Source of the DNA: an uncultured Veillonellaceae bacterium
GTDB lineage: Bacteria > Bacillota > Negativicutes > Veillonellales > Dialisteraceae
DNA length: 64,000 bases
Reading direction: 5' to 3'
Assembly: GCA_927353735.1 (NCBI GenBank)
Contig: CAKMIA010000007.1
Location: 1 to 64,000 of the forward strand
Positions 3,616 through 31,902 of this stretch are shown here, one piece after another; position 1 is the first letter of the stretch; every line of letters begins with the position of its first letter. The position numbers and the translations under genes were made by a program. A model generated the notes under the pieces. The model saw only the letters and a list, made by a program, of their open reading frames with translations, was not told the DNA's origin and did not search any database.

Positions 3616-4329
3616 TTATTTCCGGCCGCCCAGATAGGCTGCCATGACGCTCGGATTGGAAGCCACTTCCTGCGCCGGTCCTTCGAGGACGATCTTCCCC
3701 GTTTCCATGACGTACGCGTAGTCGGCGATCTGGAGCGCCTTGCGCGCATTCTGTTCGACCAGCAGCACCGTGGTGCCGCCCTGATTGATGGCTTTTACCA
3801 CGTCGAAGATCTGCTGTACCACCAGAGGCGCCAGGCCCATGGACGGTTCATCCAGCAGCATGACCTTCGGACGGGCCATCATGGCACGGCCGATGGCGAG
3901 CATCTGCTGTTCGCCGCCGGAGAGCGTGCCGCCGTACTGGGTGAGGCGTTCCTTCAGACGGGGGAACTGGGCAAAGACCCGTTCCATATCTTCCTCGATG
4001 CCTGCCTTGTCCTTGCGTTGGTAGGCGCCCATTTCCAGATTTTCCTGCACGGTCATGCTCTGGAGGATCTGACGGCCTTCCGGCACGAGCACCACGCCGG
4101 CGCTGACGATCTGATAGGGCTTCTTCCCGCGGATGGACTGCCCTTCAAAGAGGATATCCCCTTCATTGGGCTTCATCACGCCCATGATGGTCTTCATGGT
4201 GGTGGATTTCCCTGCGCCGTTTGCCCCGATCAGGGTGACGATCTTGCCTTCCTCTACGGAGAGGCTGATGCCTTTCAGCGCTTTAATATTGCCGTAGCTC
4301 GCCACGACATTTTTCAGCTCAAGCAGCAT
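3616..4329 (-). CDS. livF: Branched-chain amino acid ABC transporter ATP-binding protein LivF
   Basis: This 237-residue ABC ATPase has Walker A GANGAGKST at about residues 34-42, signature LSGGEQQMLAIGRAM, Walker B VMLLDEPS and the switch histidine replaced by the LivF-typical LLVEQN. The length is standard for LivF. It shares one base (TAATG) with livG, so the two are translationally coupled. With LivG it forms the heterodimeric motor on the cytoplasmic face of the LivHM permease, importing Leu/Ile/Val by ATP hydrolysis. It is the last gene of the operon. Confidence 0.95.
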   Translation of the reverse strand: MLLELKNVVASYGNIKALKGISLSVEEGKIVTLIGANGAGKSTTMKTIMGVMKPNEGDILFEGQSIRGKKPYQIVSAGVVLVPEGRQILQSMTVQENLEMGAYQRKDKAGIEEDMERVFAQFPRLKERLTQYGGTLSGGEQQMLAIGRAMMARPKVMLLDEPSMGLAPLVVQQIFDVVKAINQGGTTVLLVEQNARKALQIADYAYVMETGKIVLEGPAQEVASNPSVMAAYLGGRK

Positions 4330-5093
4330 TATTCGTCCTCCTTCCCGAGATAGGCTTCAATAACGGCGGGGTTGTTCTGTACTTCCGCCGGGGTGCCTTC
4401 CGCCAGCATTTTGCCGAAATTCACAACGATCAGATGATTGCACAGCGTCATGACGAGGTTCATGTCGTGTTCAATGAGGATGATCGTGATATTGAACTGT
4501 TCCCGGATGCCGCGGATCAGGTCGATCAGAGCGGCGGTCTCGCTGTCGTTCATGCCGGCCGCCGGTTCATCCAGCAGGATGATCTGCGGATGGGAGGCCA
4601 TGGCGCGGGCGATCTCCAGCTTTCTCTGCTTGCCGTAGGGAAGCTCCGTGGCGAGATGGTCCGCCACATCATCGAGGCCTACGTACTGGAGCAGCTTGTG
4701 CGCTTCCTCCACCGCTTCCGCTTCTTCCTTCTTCATGGACGCCGTGTGGAGCAGGCTGCCCAGCAGGCCGGTCTTCATGCGGGAATGATGGCCCACGAGG
4801 ATGTGCTCGAGAACGGTCATGTTGGAGAAGAGGCGGATATTCTGGAACGTGCGGGCGATGCCGCCGTCGATGATTTCAAAGGTCTTTTTCCCGTTCAGGC
4901 TCTGGCCGTTGAAGACCACGTCCCCGGAGGTGACGGGATAGACGCCGGTGACCATATTGAAAATGGTGGTCTTCCCTGCGCCGTTCGGTCCGATGATGCC
5001 GAAGATGTCTCCCTGATTGACCTGGAAGGAGATATCGGAGAGGGCTGTGATGCCGCCGAATTTTTTCACTACGTTCTTTAATTCAAGAAGCAC
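4329..5093 (-). CDS. livG: Branched-chain amino acid ABC transporter ATP-binding protein LivG
   Basis: This 254-residue ABC ATPase starts with GTG at 5093, 2 bp after the livM stop codon. It carries Walker A GPNGAGKTT, the LivG-type insert after the Q-loop (FQNIRLFSNMTVLEHILVG), signature PYGKQRKLEIARAM, Walker B IILLDEPAAGM, and H-loop LIEHDM. The ATPase domain is followed by the C-terminal EVQNNPAVIEAYLG motif typical of the family. It pairs with LivF to power branched-chain amino acid uptake. Confidence 0.95.
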   Translation of the reverse strand: MLLELKNVVKKFGGITALSDISFQVNQGDIFGIIGPNGAGKTTIFNMVTGVYPVTSGDVVFNGQSLNGKKTFEIIDGGIARTFQNIRLFSNMTVLEHILVGHHSRMKTGLLGSLLHTASMKKEEAEAVEEAHKLLQYVGLDDVADHLATELPYGKQRKLEIARAMASHPQIILLDEPAAGMNDSETAALIDLIRGIREQFNITIILIEHDMNLVMTLCNHLIVVNFGKMLAEGTPAEVQNNPAVIEAYLGKEDE

Positions 5094-5095
5094 GG

Positions 5096-6043
5096 TCAGT
5101 TGCCTCCTTTCGGGGATTTCTTCAGACGGCGGGCGATGTATTTCACCGCGTCATAGGACAGGATGCCGTCCGGGCGGAAGCCCATGAGAGCAACCAGCAT
5201 GAGGCCGTAGATGATATCGCGGTATTCCGACATCGAGCGGAGCGATTCCGGCACGATGGTGAGGACGGTGGCGCCCAGAAGCGGACCCCACATGACGTTG
5301 CTGCCGCCGAATACAGTATAGAGCAGCATGTCCACGACCTTGTGCCAGGTGAAATCGGTGGGGCTGATGAAGTAGGTGGCATGCGCATAGAGCGCACCGG
5401 CTACACCGGCGAAGAAGGCACTGAAGAGGAAGGCCAGCATTTTGTAGTACACCACATTGATGCCCGACAGGGACGCAGCGTATTCATCGGCCTTGATGGC
5501 AGCGAAGGCGCGGCCCACGCGGGAGTGTTCCAGCCGGTACCAGAAAAAGAAGATCACGGCCACAAAGATGAAGAGCACGACGCACATGAGGAGCTGGCCC
5601 ATCGTCTGGGAGTCCAGTCCGAGTGCATCGATGAGGCCCAGATCGCTGGCATAGTCGGACAGCGCGCTCGCCATGGAGGGGATGCCCGAGAGGCCCAGCG
5701 CCCCGTTGGTGATCTTCATATTGAGGGCGATGACGCGCACCACTTCGCCGAAGCCCAGTGTGGCGATCGCCAGATAGAGGCCGCGGAGGCGAATGGTGGG
5801 GATGCCGATGATGAGTGCCACCACAGCCGCCACGATGCCCCCGCAGAGGATGGACAGCGGCATGGGCACATCCATTTTCATGGCGAGGATCGCCGAGGTG
5901 TAGGCGCCGAAGCTCATGAAGCCTGCGTTGCCCAGAGAAACCAGCCCGGTGCAGAGCGTCATATAGATGGTGAGCGCCAGGATGACATTGATGCAGATAA
6001 ACACAAAGACCTGCAGAAAGTAACCATTGAGCAATTCTTCCAT
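5096..6043 (-). CDS. livM: Branched-chain amino acid ABC transporter permease LivM
   Basis: This 315-residue permease has about nine hydrophobic segments and the LivM motifs GLVSLGNAGFMSFGAYTSA (residues about 33-51) and IGIPTIRLRGLYLAIATLGFGE. It overlaps livH by one base (TAATG). It forms the transmembrane channel together with LivH. The N-terminal cytoplasmic/TM extension found in some enterobacterial LivM proteins is absent, as is usual in Firmicutes. Confidence 0.95.
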   Translation of the reverse strand: MEELLNGYFLQVFVFICINVILALTIYMTLCTGLVSLGNAGFMSFGAYTSAILAMKMDVPMPLSILCGGIVAAVVALIIGIPTIRLRGLYLAIATLGFGEVVRVIALNMKITNGALGLSGIPSMASALSDYASDLGLIDALGLDSQTMGQLLMCVVLFIFVAVIFFFWYRLEHSRVGRAFAAIKADEYAASLSGINVVYYKMLAFLFSAFFAGVAGALYAHATYFISPTDFTWHKVVDMLLYTVFGGSNVMWGPLLGATVLTIVPESLRSMSEYRDIIYGLMLVALMGFRPDGILSYDAVKYIARRLKKSPKGGN

Positions 6044-6930
6044 TACGGTCTTCCTCCTTTCCCAGCCTTAGAGAACAATCCTTCCGGCCGGATGAAAAGG
6101 ATCAGAATGATGAGGCCGAAGGCCACTGCATCGCGGTAGGTGGATGCGCCGTAGGCCACGCTGAATACTTCGGCAATGCCCAGAATGAAGCCGCCTGCCA
6201 TGGCGCCTTCCACATTGCCCAGCCCGCCCATGATGAGGACGGCCAGCCCCTTGAAGCCCATGGCGGTGCCCATGGTCGGTTCAATGGCGTTGAAGGAAAG
6301 TCCGATGAGGACGCCCGCCGCAGCACCCAGTGCCGAGGCCAGCATGACCGTAAAGGTGATGATGAGGCCCGTATTGATGCCGAGGAGGCCGGCGGTCTCG
6401 ATATTTTCCGAGGTGGCGCGCACGGCCTTACCGATCTTCGTCTTGTTCAGCATGAGAGCCAGGAGCACCATGAGCACGACGGCGGTGCCGAGGCTGACGA
6501 TCTGAATGCCGGAGATCTTGAAGGCGCCCATGTCCATGAGCTCACTGCTGATGGTGGCCGGGAAGGACCGCGTCTGCGGGCCCCAGACCATGAGGGCCAC
6601 GCTTTCAAGGAAAATGGAAACACCGATGGTGCTGATAAGAGGAGCCAGATGGGTGACTTTGCGGCGGCGCAGCGGGCGCAGTGCAAAGAGCTCCAGCAAA
6701 TACCCGAGAACGGCTCCGCCGATCATCGCGCCGATGAGTGCGGGGAAGATCCCCACGCCGCCCTCGGTGACGAGGAGGAGACCGATGTACGCGCCGATCA
6801 TGAAGATGCCGCCATGCGCCATGTTGACGATATTCAGCACACCGAAGACCAGCGTGTAGCCGATGGCGATGACTGCATAGGCGCTGCCCAGAGTCAAACC
6901 GTTGATAAGCTGCTGAGAAAACACGTTCAT
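6043..6930 (-). CDS. livH: Branched-chain amino acid ABC transporter permease LivH
   Basis: The product is 295 residues from the ATG at 6930 after CAGAAAGGGAC; the frame runs on upstream but that part is leader RNA. The sequence MNVFSQQLINGLTLGSAYAVIAIGYTLVFG and the motif NMAHGGIFMIGAYIG are characteristic of LivH. It is an integral membrane subunit with about eight helices and heads the livHMGF operon. Expression is probably set by the T-box leader immediately upstream, which senses uncharged tRNA. Confidence 0.95.
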   Translation of the reverse strand: MNVFSQQLINGLTLGSAYAVIAIGYTLVFGVLNIVNMAHGGIFMIGAYIGLLLVTEGGVGIFPALIGAMIGGAVLGYLLELFALRPLRRRKVTHLAPLISTIGVSIFLESVALMVWGPQTRSFPATISSELMDMGAFKISGIQIVSLGTAVVLMVLLALMLNKTKIGKAVRATSENIETAGLLGINTGLIITFTVMLASALGAAAGVLIGLSFNAIEPTMGTAMGFKGLAVLIMGGLGNVEGAMAGGFILGIAEVFSVAYGASTYRDAVAFGLIILILFIRPEGLFSKAGKGGRP

Positions 6931-7023
6931 GTCCCTTTCTGTAAAACACGGGCCCCTGTGACTGCTGCGGCGTCTTCCGTGCCCCTGGAAGGCGCGCCCG
7001 GCAAAGCCGGAACGGATACCGAA

Positions 7024-7068
7024 GAAAAAGCCCCTGCCGCAGTCTCCGCTGATGACTGTGACAGGGGC
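7024..7068 (-). terminator. Second T-box terminator of the livH leader
   Basis: GCCCCTG...CAGTC pairs with GACTG...CAGGGGC and is followed by TTTTTC. The T-box at 7089-7076 can pair with its 5' arm. Confidence 0.85.
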
Positions 7069-7130
7069 GCTTCCGCGCGGTACCACCCTATTTTTTACTC
7101 TCCGGAAACGTGGCGGGTTGTCCCTGTCAT

Positions 7131-7165
7131 AAAAAAATCCCCTACCTGCATGCGCAGATAGGGGC
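7131..7165 (-). terminator. First T-box terminator of the livH leader
   Basis: CCCCTATCTGC and GCAGGTAGGGG flank GCAT and are followed by ATTTTTTT. It competes with the antiterminator formed with the T-box at 7185-7172. Confidence 0.85.
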
Positions 7166-7525
7166 GATGAACGCGGTACCACCCTACATTATACTTTGTT
7201 TCCGATCCGTAACGAGGATTGACGCCCGTCCCTACTCGATTCAGGAAAGGAGCTCCCGAGTGATATATTTGGAAGACAGAATGCGCCGTCTTGCACCATC
7301 CGCCGGCTCTCTGCAGTCATGGACTGTCTTCCTTTTTGCTCTCGATCATTGCATGTGCACCCTGTAACGCGGGCGGCGCCGGCAGATACTTGATTCCCCG
7401 CCGGAACTCCCAGGTGAGTTTGCGTCCCGCTGCCCGCCAGCTTACACCAGCCGCTGGCTCTCTTTGCCGCATGGACAGGATGCTTTTCCCTGATCCTCGT
7501 CTTTCTGATTCGGTTATATCAGTAT

Positions 7526-7553
7526 ATTATAGGAGATTCTGCTGCATTGTCAA
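7526..7553 (-). promoter_or_regulatory. Promoter of the livHMGF operon
   Basis: TTGACA at 7553-7548, a 16 bp spacer and TATAAT at 7531-7526 on the minus strand. It lies just upstream of the first stem I, so livHMGF can be transcribed independently of livJ. Confidence 0.8.
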
Positions 7554-7562
7554 TAGAAAACG

Positions 7563-7610
7563 GAAAATTTCTGACGGTCCGGCGCCGGGAAAACCGGCGG
7601 AACTCCGGAC
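7563..7610 (-). terminator. Possible terminator after livJ
   Basis: GTCCGG...CCGGAC with an inner GCCGG/CCGGC stem lies 10 bp after the livJ stop codon. The T-rich tail (AAATTTT) is weak and offset, so termination may be partial. Confidence 0.4.
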
Positions 7611-7620
7611 GGCAGGCCTC

Positions 7621-8781
7621 TTATTCCAGCGGCACCCACTGGCCGTTCTTGACCTGGAGGATGTCCAGTTCCATCTTCGGATCGCGGTTTTCATCGAATT
7701 CAAATTTGCCGGTCGCACCTTCGAAGCCCTTGATGCCGGCGAGAGTGTCGCGGAACTTCTTCCGGTCCGTGGTGGTGCCGGACTGCTCGATCGCCTGATG
7801 GAGGGTGTACATCGCGTCATAGGCCTGTGCGGAGAACTGATCCGGTTCGTGGTTGTACTTCGCGATGAAGGCCTTGCGGAATGCCTGGGCCTTTTCGGTC
7901 TGCCGTTCCGGGTTCCACGGGGTCGCTACGAGCGTGCCGTCTGCCGCTTCCCCGGCCTGCTTGATGTATTCAGGGCTGTTGAAGCCGTTGTTGCCGATGA
8001 TCATCTGGGTCATGCCCATGTCGCGGGCCTTCTTGGCGATGAGGGCCCCTTCCTGATAGAGGCTGGCCACGCAGATGATGTCCGGATTGGCCGCCTGGAT
8101 CTTCGTGAGCTGGGCGGAGAAATCCGTATCCTTTTCCGCGAAGGTCTCCGTGGCGACGATGTCGATGCCCATTTCCTTGAACAGTTCCTGATAGATGCCG
8201 TTCTCGCCTACCATCTGGTCATTGTTGTTGCAGTACAGGATCGCGGCAGTCTTGAAGCCCAGCTTGTCATGGGCCTTCTTTACGGTCTGCGGGATGGCCA
8301 TTTTGCCGGGGATGGCATTTCTGAAGATGTAGTCGCCGATGTCGGTGATGCCCGGTGCGGTGGTGCCGGTGCCGAAGGCCACGACGCCGGACTGCTGGGC
8401 GATCGGGCCGGCAGCAAACATTTCACCGGAGAAGGTCGGGCCCTCGATGGCGAGCACCTTGTCCTGCTCGATGAGCTTCTTCATCGCATTGATGGCCTCG
8501 GTCTTGCTGCCCTTCGTATCATAGAAGGCGATATCCAGCTTGATCTTCGTATTGGGATTGCTGTTGATCTCCTCCACGGCCAGATCGACGCCTTCCTTCA
8601 TGGCGATGCCGTAGGCCGCCCCGGGGCCGGACGTCGCTTCCAGCACGCCGATCTTGGCGGACTGGCCTGCACTGCCGGACGCCGAGCCCGATTTTTCTCC
8701 GCCGCAGCCTGCGAAAGCACCTGCGATCATCAATGCGGCGCCTGCCGCTGCCAGCCGTTTCATCCATTTCTTGTCCATCAT
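7621..8781 (-). CDS. livJ: Branched-chain amino acid ABC transporter substrate-binding lipoprotein LivJ
   Basis: This 386-residue type I periplasmic binding protein begins with a lipoprotein signal (MKRLAAAGAALMIAGAFAGC, lipobox AFAGC) and a Gly/Ser linker. The mature part starts KIGVLEATSGPGAAYGIAMKEGVDLAVEEIN, typical of Leu/Ile/Val-binding proteins. The start follows GAAGGGGGTC; either of two adjacent ATGs could be used. It captures ligand outside the inner membrane and delivers it to LivHMGF. It is a separate transcription unit from livHMGF, with its own T-box leader. Confidence 0.93.
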   Translation of the reverse strand: MMDKKWMKRLAAAGAALMIAGAFAGCGGEKSGSASGSAGQSAKIGVLEATSGPGAAYGIAMKEGVDLAVEEINSNPNTKIKLDIAFYDTKGSKTEAINAMKKLIEQDKVLAIEGPTFSGEMFAAGPIAQQSGVVAFGTGTTAPGITDIGDYIFRNAIPGKMAIPQTVKKAHDKLGFKTAAILYCNNNDQMVGENGIYQELFKEMGIDIVATETFAEKDTDFSAQLTKIQAANPDIICVASLYQEGALIAKKARDMGMTQMIIGNNGFNSPEYIKQAGEAADGTLVATPWNPERQTEKAQAFRKAFIAKYNHEPDQFSAQAYDAMYTLHQAIEQSGTTTDRKKFRDTLAGIKGFEGATGKFEFDENRDPKMELDILQVKNGQWVPLE

Positions 8782-8843
8782 GATTGTTGACCCCCTTCTT
8801 ATGTGTCATCGGTGATTGCTATGCCATCCCATACAGCCTGTCC

Positions 8844-8895
8844 AAAAAGAAAACGCCCCTGTCTCCGGCTGCATGCCTTTCCGGAGACAGGGGCG
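8844..8895 (-). terminator. Second T-box terminator of the livJ leader
   Basis: GCCCCTGTCTCCGG and CCGGAGACAGGGGC form a perfect 14 bp stem followed by TTTTCTTTTT. Confidence 0.88.
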
Positions 8896-8959
8896 CATCG
8901 CGCGGTACCACCCTGTGTTTGGACTCGCCTACGGTATAGATGCGGTGCATCCGCTGTAC

Positions 8960-8993
8960 AAAAAACCCCTACCTCACCATGGTGAGATAGGGG
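8960..8993 (-). terminator. First T-box terminator of the livJ leader
   Basis: CCCCTATCTCACC and GGTGAGGTAGGGG form a hairpin followed by TTTTTT. Confidence 0.85.
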
Positions 8994-9205
8994 CGTCATT
9001 CCGCGGTACCACCCTACATTATACTTATAGGAGTGTCCGTAACGGGGACCGGCCGTTCCACCTTACTTACTTCAGATGGAATACTCGCGAGGGACATATC
9101 GCACTCCAGCCTGCATCAGCTTGCACCATCCGCTGACTCTCTGCAGTCAGATTCTGAAATGCTCGGAAAATCTCGTTCATCGTATCTGCTGTATTGAATG
9201 TCTGA

Positions 9206-9234
9206 ATTATACCGCTGCCCGCGCGGAAAGTCAA
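9206..9234 (-). promoter_or_regulatory. Promoter of livJ
   Basis: TTGACT at 9234-9229, a 17 bp spacer and TATAAT at 9211-9206 on the minus strand, placing the transcript start just before stem I. Confidence 0.85.
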
Positions 9235-31687: not shown

Positions 31688-31721
31688 TAAAAAATCCCCT
31701 GTAACGACTGTTACAGGGACG
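31688..31721 (-). terminator. T-box terminator of glyQS
   Basis: CCCCTGTAACGA/TGTTACAGGG hairpin followed by ATTTTTTATT on the minus strand, ending about 20 bp before glyQ. Confidence 0.88.
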
Positions 31722-31902
31722 AGATATACCCGCGGTTCCACCCTTATTGGCACAGAATCCTCTGTACCCGCTTCTTTGATGGCTGCCCTACTCACCGAAG
31801 CTTCAGGCAGCAGCTCCGAAACGCCTTCCGCGCCTGTCCGGCTTGCACCGTCCCGGACTCGCTTCGCTGCGCGTACTCCTTTTCTTCCTCGCTGTGATTT
31901 TT
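31688..31902 (-). promoter_or_regulatory. Glycine T-box leader of glyQS
   Basis: On the minus strand a stem I (GGAGTA S-turn, GGTGCAAG distal loop) carries the specifier GGC (31825-31823, Gly). The T-box is AGGGTGGAACCGCG and the terminator is CCCTGTAACAG-TCG-TTACAGGG with ATTTTTT. Uncharged tRNA-Gly should stabilise the antiterminator and let glyQS be transcribed. Confidence 0.95.

Follow-up and report, generated by a model that had tools for sequence, protein, structure and literature searches.

The leader of the livH operon in the window, by which we mean the whole 64-kb stretch of DNA analyzed, is probably a dual-decoder T-box, in which decoders for Leu and Ile stand side by side and feed shared antiterminator/terminator modules, most likely in an OR-like manner. 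This leader and the leader of the neighboring livJ gene are both predicted transcriptional T-box riboswitches. The Leu+Ile pair was found upstream of livH in every readable leader of the family, and a second, weaker case was identified upstream of ilvD in a distant Negativicutes genome.

Genes and promoters of the liv locus

Profile matches gave the gene order livJ, livH, livM, livG, and livF on the minus strand, with a promoter-like TTGAC-TATAAT pair separately present for the livJ leader and the livH leader:

9206..9234, minus strand, livJ promoter (TTGACT, 17 nt, TATAAT; sequence inspection)
7621..8781, minus strand, livJ-type branched-chain amino acid binding lipoprotein (Peripla_BP_6, E 1.8e-61; the top NCBIfam match is a LivJ-type subfamily, under its cut-off)
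7526..7553, minus strand, livH operon promoter (TTGACA, 16 nt, TATAAT; sequence inspection)
6043..6936, minus strand, livH permease (PF02653, E 1.8e-39; top match NF008011 LivH)
5096..6043, minus strand, livM permease (PF02653, E 3e-41; top match NF008450 LivM)
4329..5093, minus strand, livG ATPase (NF008449 LivG, E 5e-92)
3616..4329, minus strand, livF ATPase (NF008626 LivF, E 1.6e-78)

The livJ sequence matched uncultured Veillonellaceae contigs (94%) and Dialister succinatiphilus (73%), and the source organism, as judged from sequence, is close to Dialister.

Three decoders with Leu, Ile, and Val specifiers

The term decoder is used here for the T-box decoding domain, comprising Stem I, Stem II, and the F-box. 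A covariance model (R1) was built from 20 decoders of other T-box leaders of the same genome and its family, with every livH decoder and every decoder in the window left out of the training set. Compensatory changes were present in 19 of the 26 predicted pairs of the training alignment, supporting the expected helices. Using R1, three decoders were identified across the 64-kb window, the next match, at 8.6 bits, being noise:

9035..9186, minus strand, Val decoder of the livJ leader (Stem I, Stem II, and F-box hairpin); R1 108.7 bits, E 1.4e-28
9093..9095, minus strand, specifier GUC of the Val decoder, followed by C; frame from the covarying basal stem
7360..7503, minus strand, Leu decoder of the livH leader, without its own antiterminator/terminator; R1 82.5 bits, E 2.5e-21
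7416..7418, minus strand, specifier CUC of the Leu decoder, followed by A; covariance-model frame
7205..7355, minus strand, Ile decoder of the livH leader, 4 nt downstream of the Leu decoder; R1 114.3 bits
7262..7264, minus strand, specifier AUC of the Ile decoder, followed by A; covariance-model frame

The earlier note had pointed to the minus-strand triplets CTC (7418-7416), ATC (7264-7262), and GTC (9095-9093) as Leu, Ile, and Val specifiers. All three are exact in the sequence, and the covariance alignment leaves them where they had been placed, with R1, trained without the livH and window decoders, reading CUC, AUC, and GUC. The frame is taken as CUC+A, AUC+A, and GUC+C because the covarying basal stem of R1 fixes its position. 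In all three decoders, Stem I carries AGAGA and GGUG at its apex and has a specifier loop that the basal stem closes, and the Stem II AGUA and F-box CGUUA hairpin is likewise found in each, the Leu decoder included. Single-sequence folding does not favor the basal stem of the Leu (P 0.12) and Val (P 0.06) decoders; as energy models miss non-canonical motifs present in T-box decoders, covariation was relied on instead.

At the Rfam gathering threshold (93 bits), no T-box was found in the window. A permissive search with the T-box model RF00230 gave matches in the livH leader (7358-7157; 83.3 bits, E 5.6e-18) and in the livJ leader (9189-8986; 82.6 bits, E 8.3e-18), both of which a default scan misses because they score under the gathering score. 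The same search also matched the T-box 3' part in isolation at 7093-7063; the Leu element was absent from the T-box matches in the window. In the Rfam alignment, Stem III is largely deleted from the livH leader and mismatched in the livJ leader, with only an AGUA-UAAU remnant left; this was not treated as decisive, given that Stem III varies among T-boxes and that leaders elsewhere in Veillonellales are similar. Rfam matches to NsiR1, mir-3130, and Pseudomon-1 were terminator-like hairpins under threshold and were dismissed. A further T-box lies elsewhere in the window (31712-31898, minus strand), upstream of a glyQ-like gene, with a specifier that is probably GGC (Gly); it is under the Rfam gathering score and was missed by R1.

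The source genome harbors a tRNA-Leu(GAG), the discriminator A73 of which matches UGGU. Neither tRNA-Ile(GAU) nor tRNA-Val(GAC) was seen in the draft assembly of the source organism; a tRNA-Val(GAC), also with A73, is present in the complete genome of a relative (G005). The CUC+A and AUC+A specifiers fit the usual pattern of a purine after the triplet; GUC precedes C, which makes Val the least secure of the predicted specificities.

Antiterminator/terminator modules

Two modules were identified in each leader, all four of which contain a UGGU bulge; by folding, the antiterminator 3' strand of each doubles as the terminator 5' strand:

8960..9016, minus strand, first antiterminator/terminator of the livJ leader (UGGU bulge, U-run; terminator -29.5 versus antiterminator -7.4 kcal/mol)
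8850..8915, minus strand, second antiterminator/terminator of the livJ leader, without its own decoder (terminator -38.5 versus antiterminator -10.6 kcal/mol)
7131..7186, minus strand, first antiterminator/terminator of the livH leader (terminator -24.6 versus antiterminator -8.1 kcal/mol)
7025..7090, minus strand, second antiterminator/terminator of the livH leader (Rfam 3' part at 7063-7093; terminator -34.5 versus antiterminator -11.1 kcal/mol)

The second module of each leader (8915-8850 and 7090-7025) had not been described in the earlier note. In the livJ leader, one decoder is followed by two modules in series, an arrangement of duplicated terminator/antiterminator elements, and two terminator modules are present in nearly all livJ leaders of the family. 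The livH leader is not a tandem of complete T-boxes, as its Leu decoder has no antiterminator/terminator of its own, and no terminator or T-box core lies in the 4-nt gap between the Leu and Ile decoders. The earlier note placed two T-box stem I elements in this leader, implying a different layout; two decoders are indeed present, but they abut and precede a shared pair of terminators.

Two terminator modules were also a feature of other leaders: 8 of the 18 T-box leaders of the source genome (G000, L001-L018), livJ included, possess them; each of these eight lies ahead of a transport or biosynthesis gene, and none precedes an aminoacyl-tRNA synthetase gene. The leader L088 (G011), upstream of a livJ-type gene, has one decoder and then three antiterminator/terminator modules.

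The livH double decoder is conserved across three genera

The family sample comprised 12 Dialisteraceae genomes, 8 of which, from three genera, had livH with a readable leader; livH of this kind was absent in three of the others, and in G011 the leader was lost at a contig end. The Leu+Ile double decoder was found upstream of livH in all eight readable leaders, with a spacing of 2 to 7 nt, CUC+A in every Leu decoder (8/8), and AUC+A in every Ile decoder (8/8), the Leu decoders being only about 70% identical among themselves. Six of the eight leaders, including that in the window, contain two terminator modules, and those of G005 and G003 contain one. The G003 leader has the order Ile-Leu, its downstream Leu decoder being degenerate in Stem II (46.5 bits); the G003 decoders share approximately 40 to 54% identity with either class, and the reversed order may stem either from a decoder swap or from point changes in the specifiers.

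In an alignment of 16 livH decoders and one weak match, 94.8% of the helix cells were paired, 19 of 24 pairs had changed on both sides, and none of 500 shuffles equaled this, although the alignment was fitted to the structure tested. For that reason, an unfitted comparison offers the safer support: the basal stem changes from CAGG/CCTG to CGGG/CCCG, and all six positions of the Leu apical stem remain paired (6/6).

Elsewhere in the order, in families other than Dialisteraceae, LivH homologues had no decoder within 1.5 kb upstream, with the exception of G015, where a decoder approximately 1.3 kb upstream probably belongs to a livJ leader. A junction model (R2) run against 300 Negativicutes genomes scored the eight livH leaders at 107 to 143 bits and all else at about 52 bits or less, which is not a fair count of double decoders elsewhere, as R2 was trained on these eight leaders and gave the ilvD case described below only about 45 bits. 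In two genomes of another Veillonellales family, the leaders L164 (G031 C1:1147221-1148071) and L165 (G032 C2:91796-92644) harbor a series of four complete T-boxes with Ile (AUC) specifiers, at intervals of about 234 nt, preceding an aminotransferase-like gene.

Following the R2 search of the 300 genomes, R1 identified a second double decoder in the ilvD leader of G247, a distant Negativicutes metagenome-assembled genome (L226, 1410-1736), consisting of an Ile decoder and then a Leu decoder, 30 nt apart, with one terminator. The specifiers read AUC+C and CUC+C in a frame for which the basal stem is taken to contain a bulged C. Relatives of G247 with an ilvD T-box each have a single decoder, with AUC in three and CUC in one. 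This case is weaker than that of livH, as the G247 genome is 63% complete.

Specifiers of other livJ-type genes

Four T-box-controlled livJ paralogues are present in the source genome, with a Val specifier in the window copy only. The other three are as follows:

C9:1739, livJ-type gene with a T-box leader, specifier AUC (Ile)
C9:3511, livJ-type gene with a T-box leader, specifier CUC, followed by U (Leu)
C5:46343, livJ-type gene with a T-box leader, specifier AUC (Ile)

Further livJ genes in other family genomes have GUC+A (Val), AUC, and CUC specifiers, and the GUC+C of the window-type livJ was found in three genomes of the genus. A U or C in place of a purine follows the specifier in the livJ leaders L034, L035, L036, L088, and L090 as well as at position 9092 of the window, and this base is kept within livJ orthologues.

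The earlier note proposed a three-way split of the branched-chain amino acids between permease and binding protein. Leu+Ile at livH and Val at the window livJ agree with this, but as the three other livJ leaders read Ile, Leu, and Ile, the arrangement is better described as one permease/ATPase operon under Leu+Ile with binding proteins each under one amino acid. It was also this split that had been named as unusual; what is truly unusual, the juxtaposition of decoders for two tRNAs, had not been singled out.

Proposed mechanism and alternatives

During shortage of Leu or Ile, the matching uncharged tRNA would be held by its own decoder, and its free 3' NCCA end would pair with the UGGU bulge, preventing the terminator from forming and allowing livHMGF to be read; charged tRNA would leave the terminators formed. 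The two decoders would be alternative (OR-like) inputs to the shared terminators, and the second terminator in series would tighten the off state. The analysis established the elements, the specifier frame, the lack of a terminator between the two decoders, their covarying conservation in three genera, and the ilvD case; tRNA binding, antitermination, and OR logic at the livH leader are inferred.

Adjacent decoders for different tRNAs precede a single terminator in G005, G003, and G247, and thus a switch common to two decoders seems workable. That two decoders do share one switch follows from the livH leaders of G005 and G003, which keep both with one antiterminator module. The window leader has two terminators, which may leave room for AND logic, with one terminator per decoder and livHMGF read only if tRNA-Leu and tRNA-Ile are both uncharged. 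Five other genomes share this layout of two decoders and two terminators, and complete T-boxes in series have been described as requiring both ligands (PMC12452182). We nevertheless regard an AND gate as somewhat unlikely, given the two decoders on one terminator in G005, G003, and the G247 ilvD leader; moreover, terminator number does not follow decoder number, since livJ leaders have two terminators and one decoder.

The absence of a terminator belonging to the Leu decoder could also mean that it survives as a relic from a complete tandem T-box that was once present, leaving tRNA-Ile as the sole regulator of livH. Bacillota commonly carry complete T-boxes in tandem (PMC12452182), and such arrays occur in this order too, as in the four in series of L164 and L165. 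However, across three genera the Leu decoder keeps all of its stems with compensatory changes, CUC+A is invariant, and the short spacing is constant, while in G003 it is the Leu decoder that stands downstream, making a relic very unlikely. A cooperative or antenna role, in which both tRNAs are bound together and one decoder stabilizes or recruits the tRNA of the other without itself feeding the switch, would have a parallel in glycine riboswitches, where neighboring aptamers on a single expression platform act cooperatively (PMC9481103). Simple one-ligand cooperativity is inapplicable to differing specifiers, and no sign of decoder-decoder contact was found; we consider this role unlikely.

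The OR-like reading has a difficulty of its own, as a tRNA held by the upstream decoder would have to reach the antiterminator past a whole second decoder. In its broadest form, a natural RNA OR gate by which either Leu or Ile shortage turns on one transporter operon, and which arose at least twice (livH in Dialisteraceae and ilvD in another Negativicutes family), the proposal is tentative, and we place it a little short of an even chance. The family provides a natural series in which one decoder is found with one, two, or three terminators and two decoders with one or two, in either order. With this series one can ask directly whether a T-box accepts alternative inputs from two different tRNAs and at what distance a decoder may still control its switch, and it would show how several amino acids come to govern one broad-specificity transporter with no regulatory protein involved.

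Comparison with known systems

The livH leader shares with the canonical transcriptional T-box (RF00230) the AGAGA/GGUG apex, the specifier loop, the Stem II AGUA, the F-box, the UGGN bulge, and an antiterminator and terminator sharing a strand; it differs in that its two decoders read different tRNAs, that it has two terminators, and that the Stem III hairpin is almost absent. T-boxes of a partially tandem kind, in which the terminator/antiterminator elements are duplicated, were reportedly described by Vitreschak et al. in 2008. They resemble the livJ leader and seven others of the 18 in the genome in having two terminator modules; in these the switch alone is duplicated, whereas the livH leader doubles the decoder too, with another specifier. 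Such partially tandem T-boxes are mentioned in PMC7583486, and T-boxes are enriched in complete tandems, glycine riboswitches in adjacent aptamers (PMC12452182). Terminators duplicated in series are already known, and serial arrays of complete T-boxes are common (PMC12452182).

Interactive aptamer logic gates and tandem glycine aptamers likewise combine adjacent aptamers with a common expression platform (PMC9481103); the gates listed in the available portion of that survey are AND, NOR, A AND NOT B, NOT A AND B, and IMPLY, with no OR, and its tables, to the same extent, include no T-box pair on one platform. Two adjacent aptamers for different ligands on a single platform, the layout of such a gate, are seen in the leaders of G005, G003, and G247, and the window leader has two terminators. 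In the literature searched, largely the main texts of open-access papers, no account of neighboring T-box decoders that read two tRNAs was found. The homoserine dehydrogenase gene of C. difficile has two T-boxes for presumably different tRNAs (PMC11477304) and thus also places two tRNAs on one gene; there, each T-box is listed separately, whereas the livH decoders abut and share a switch.
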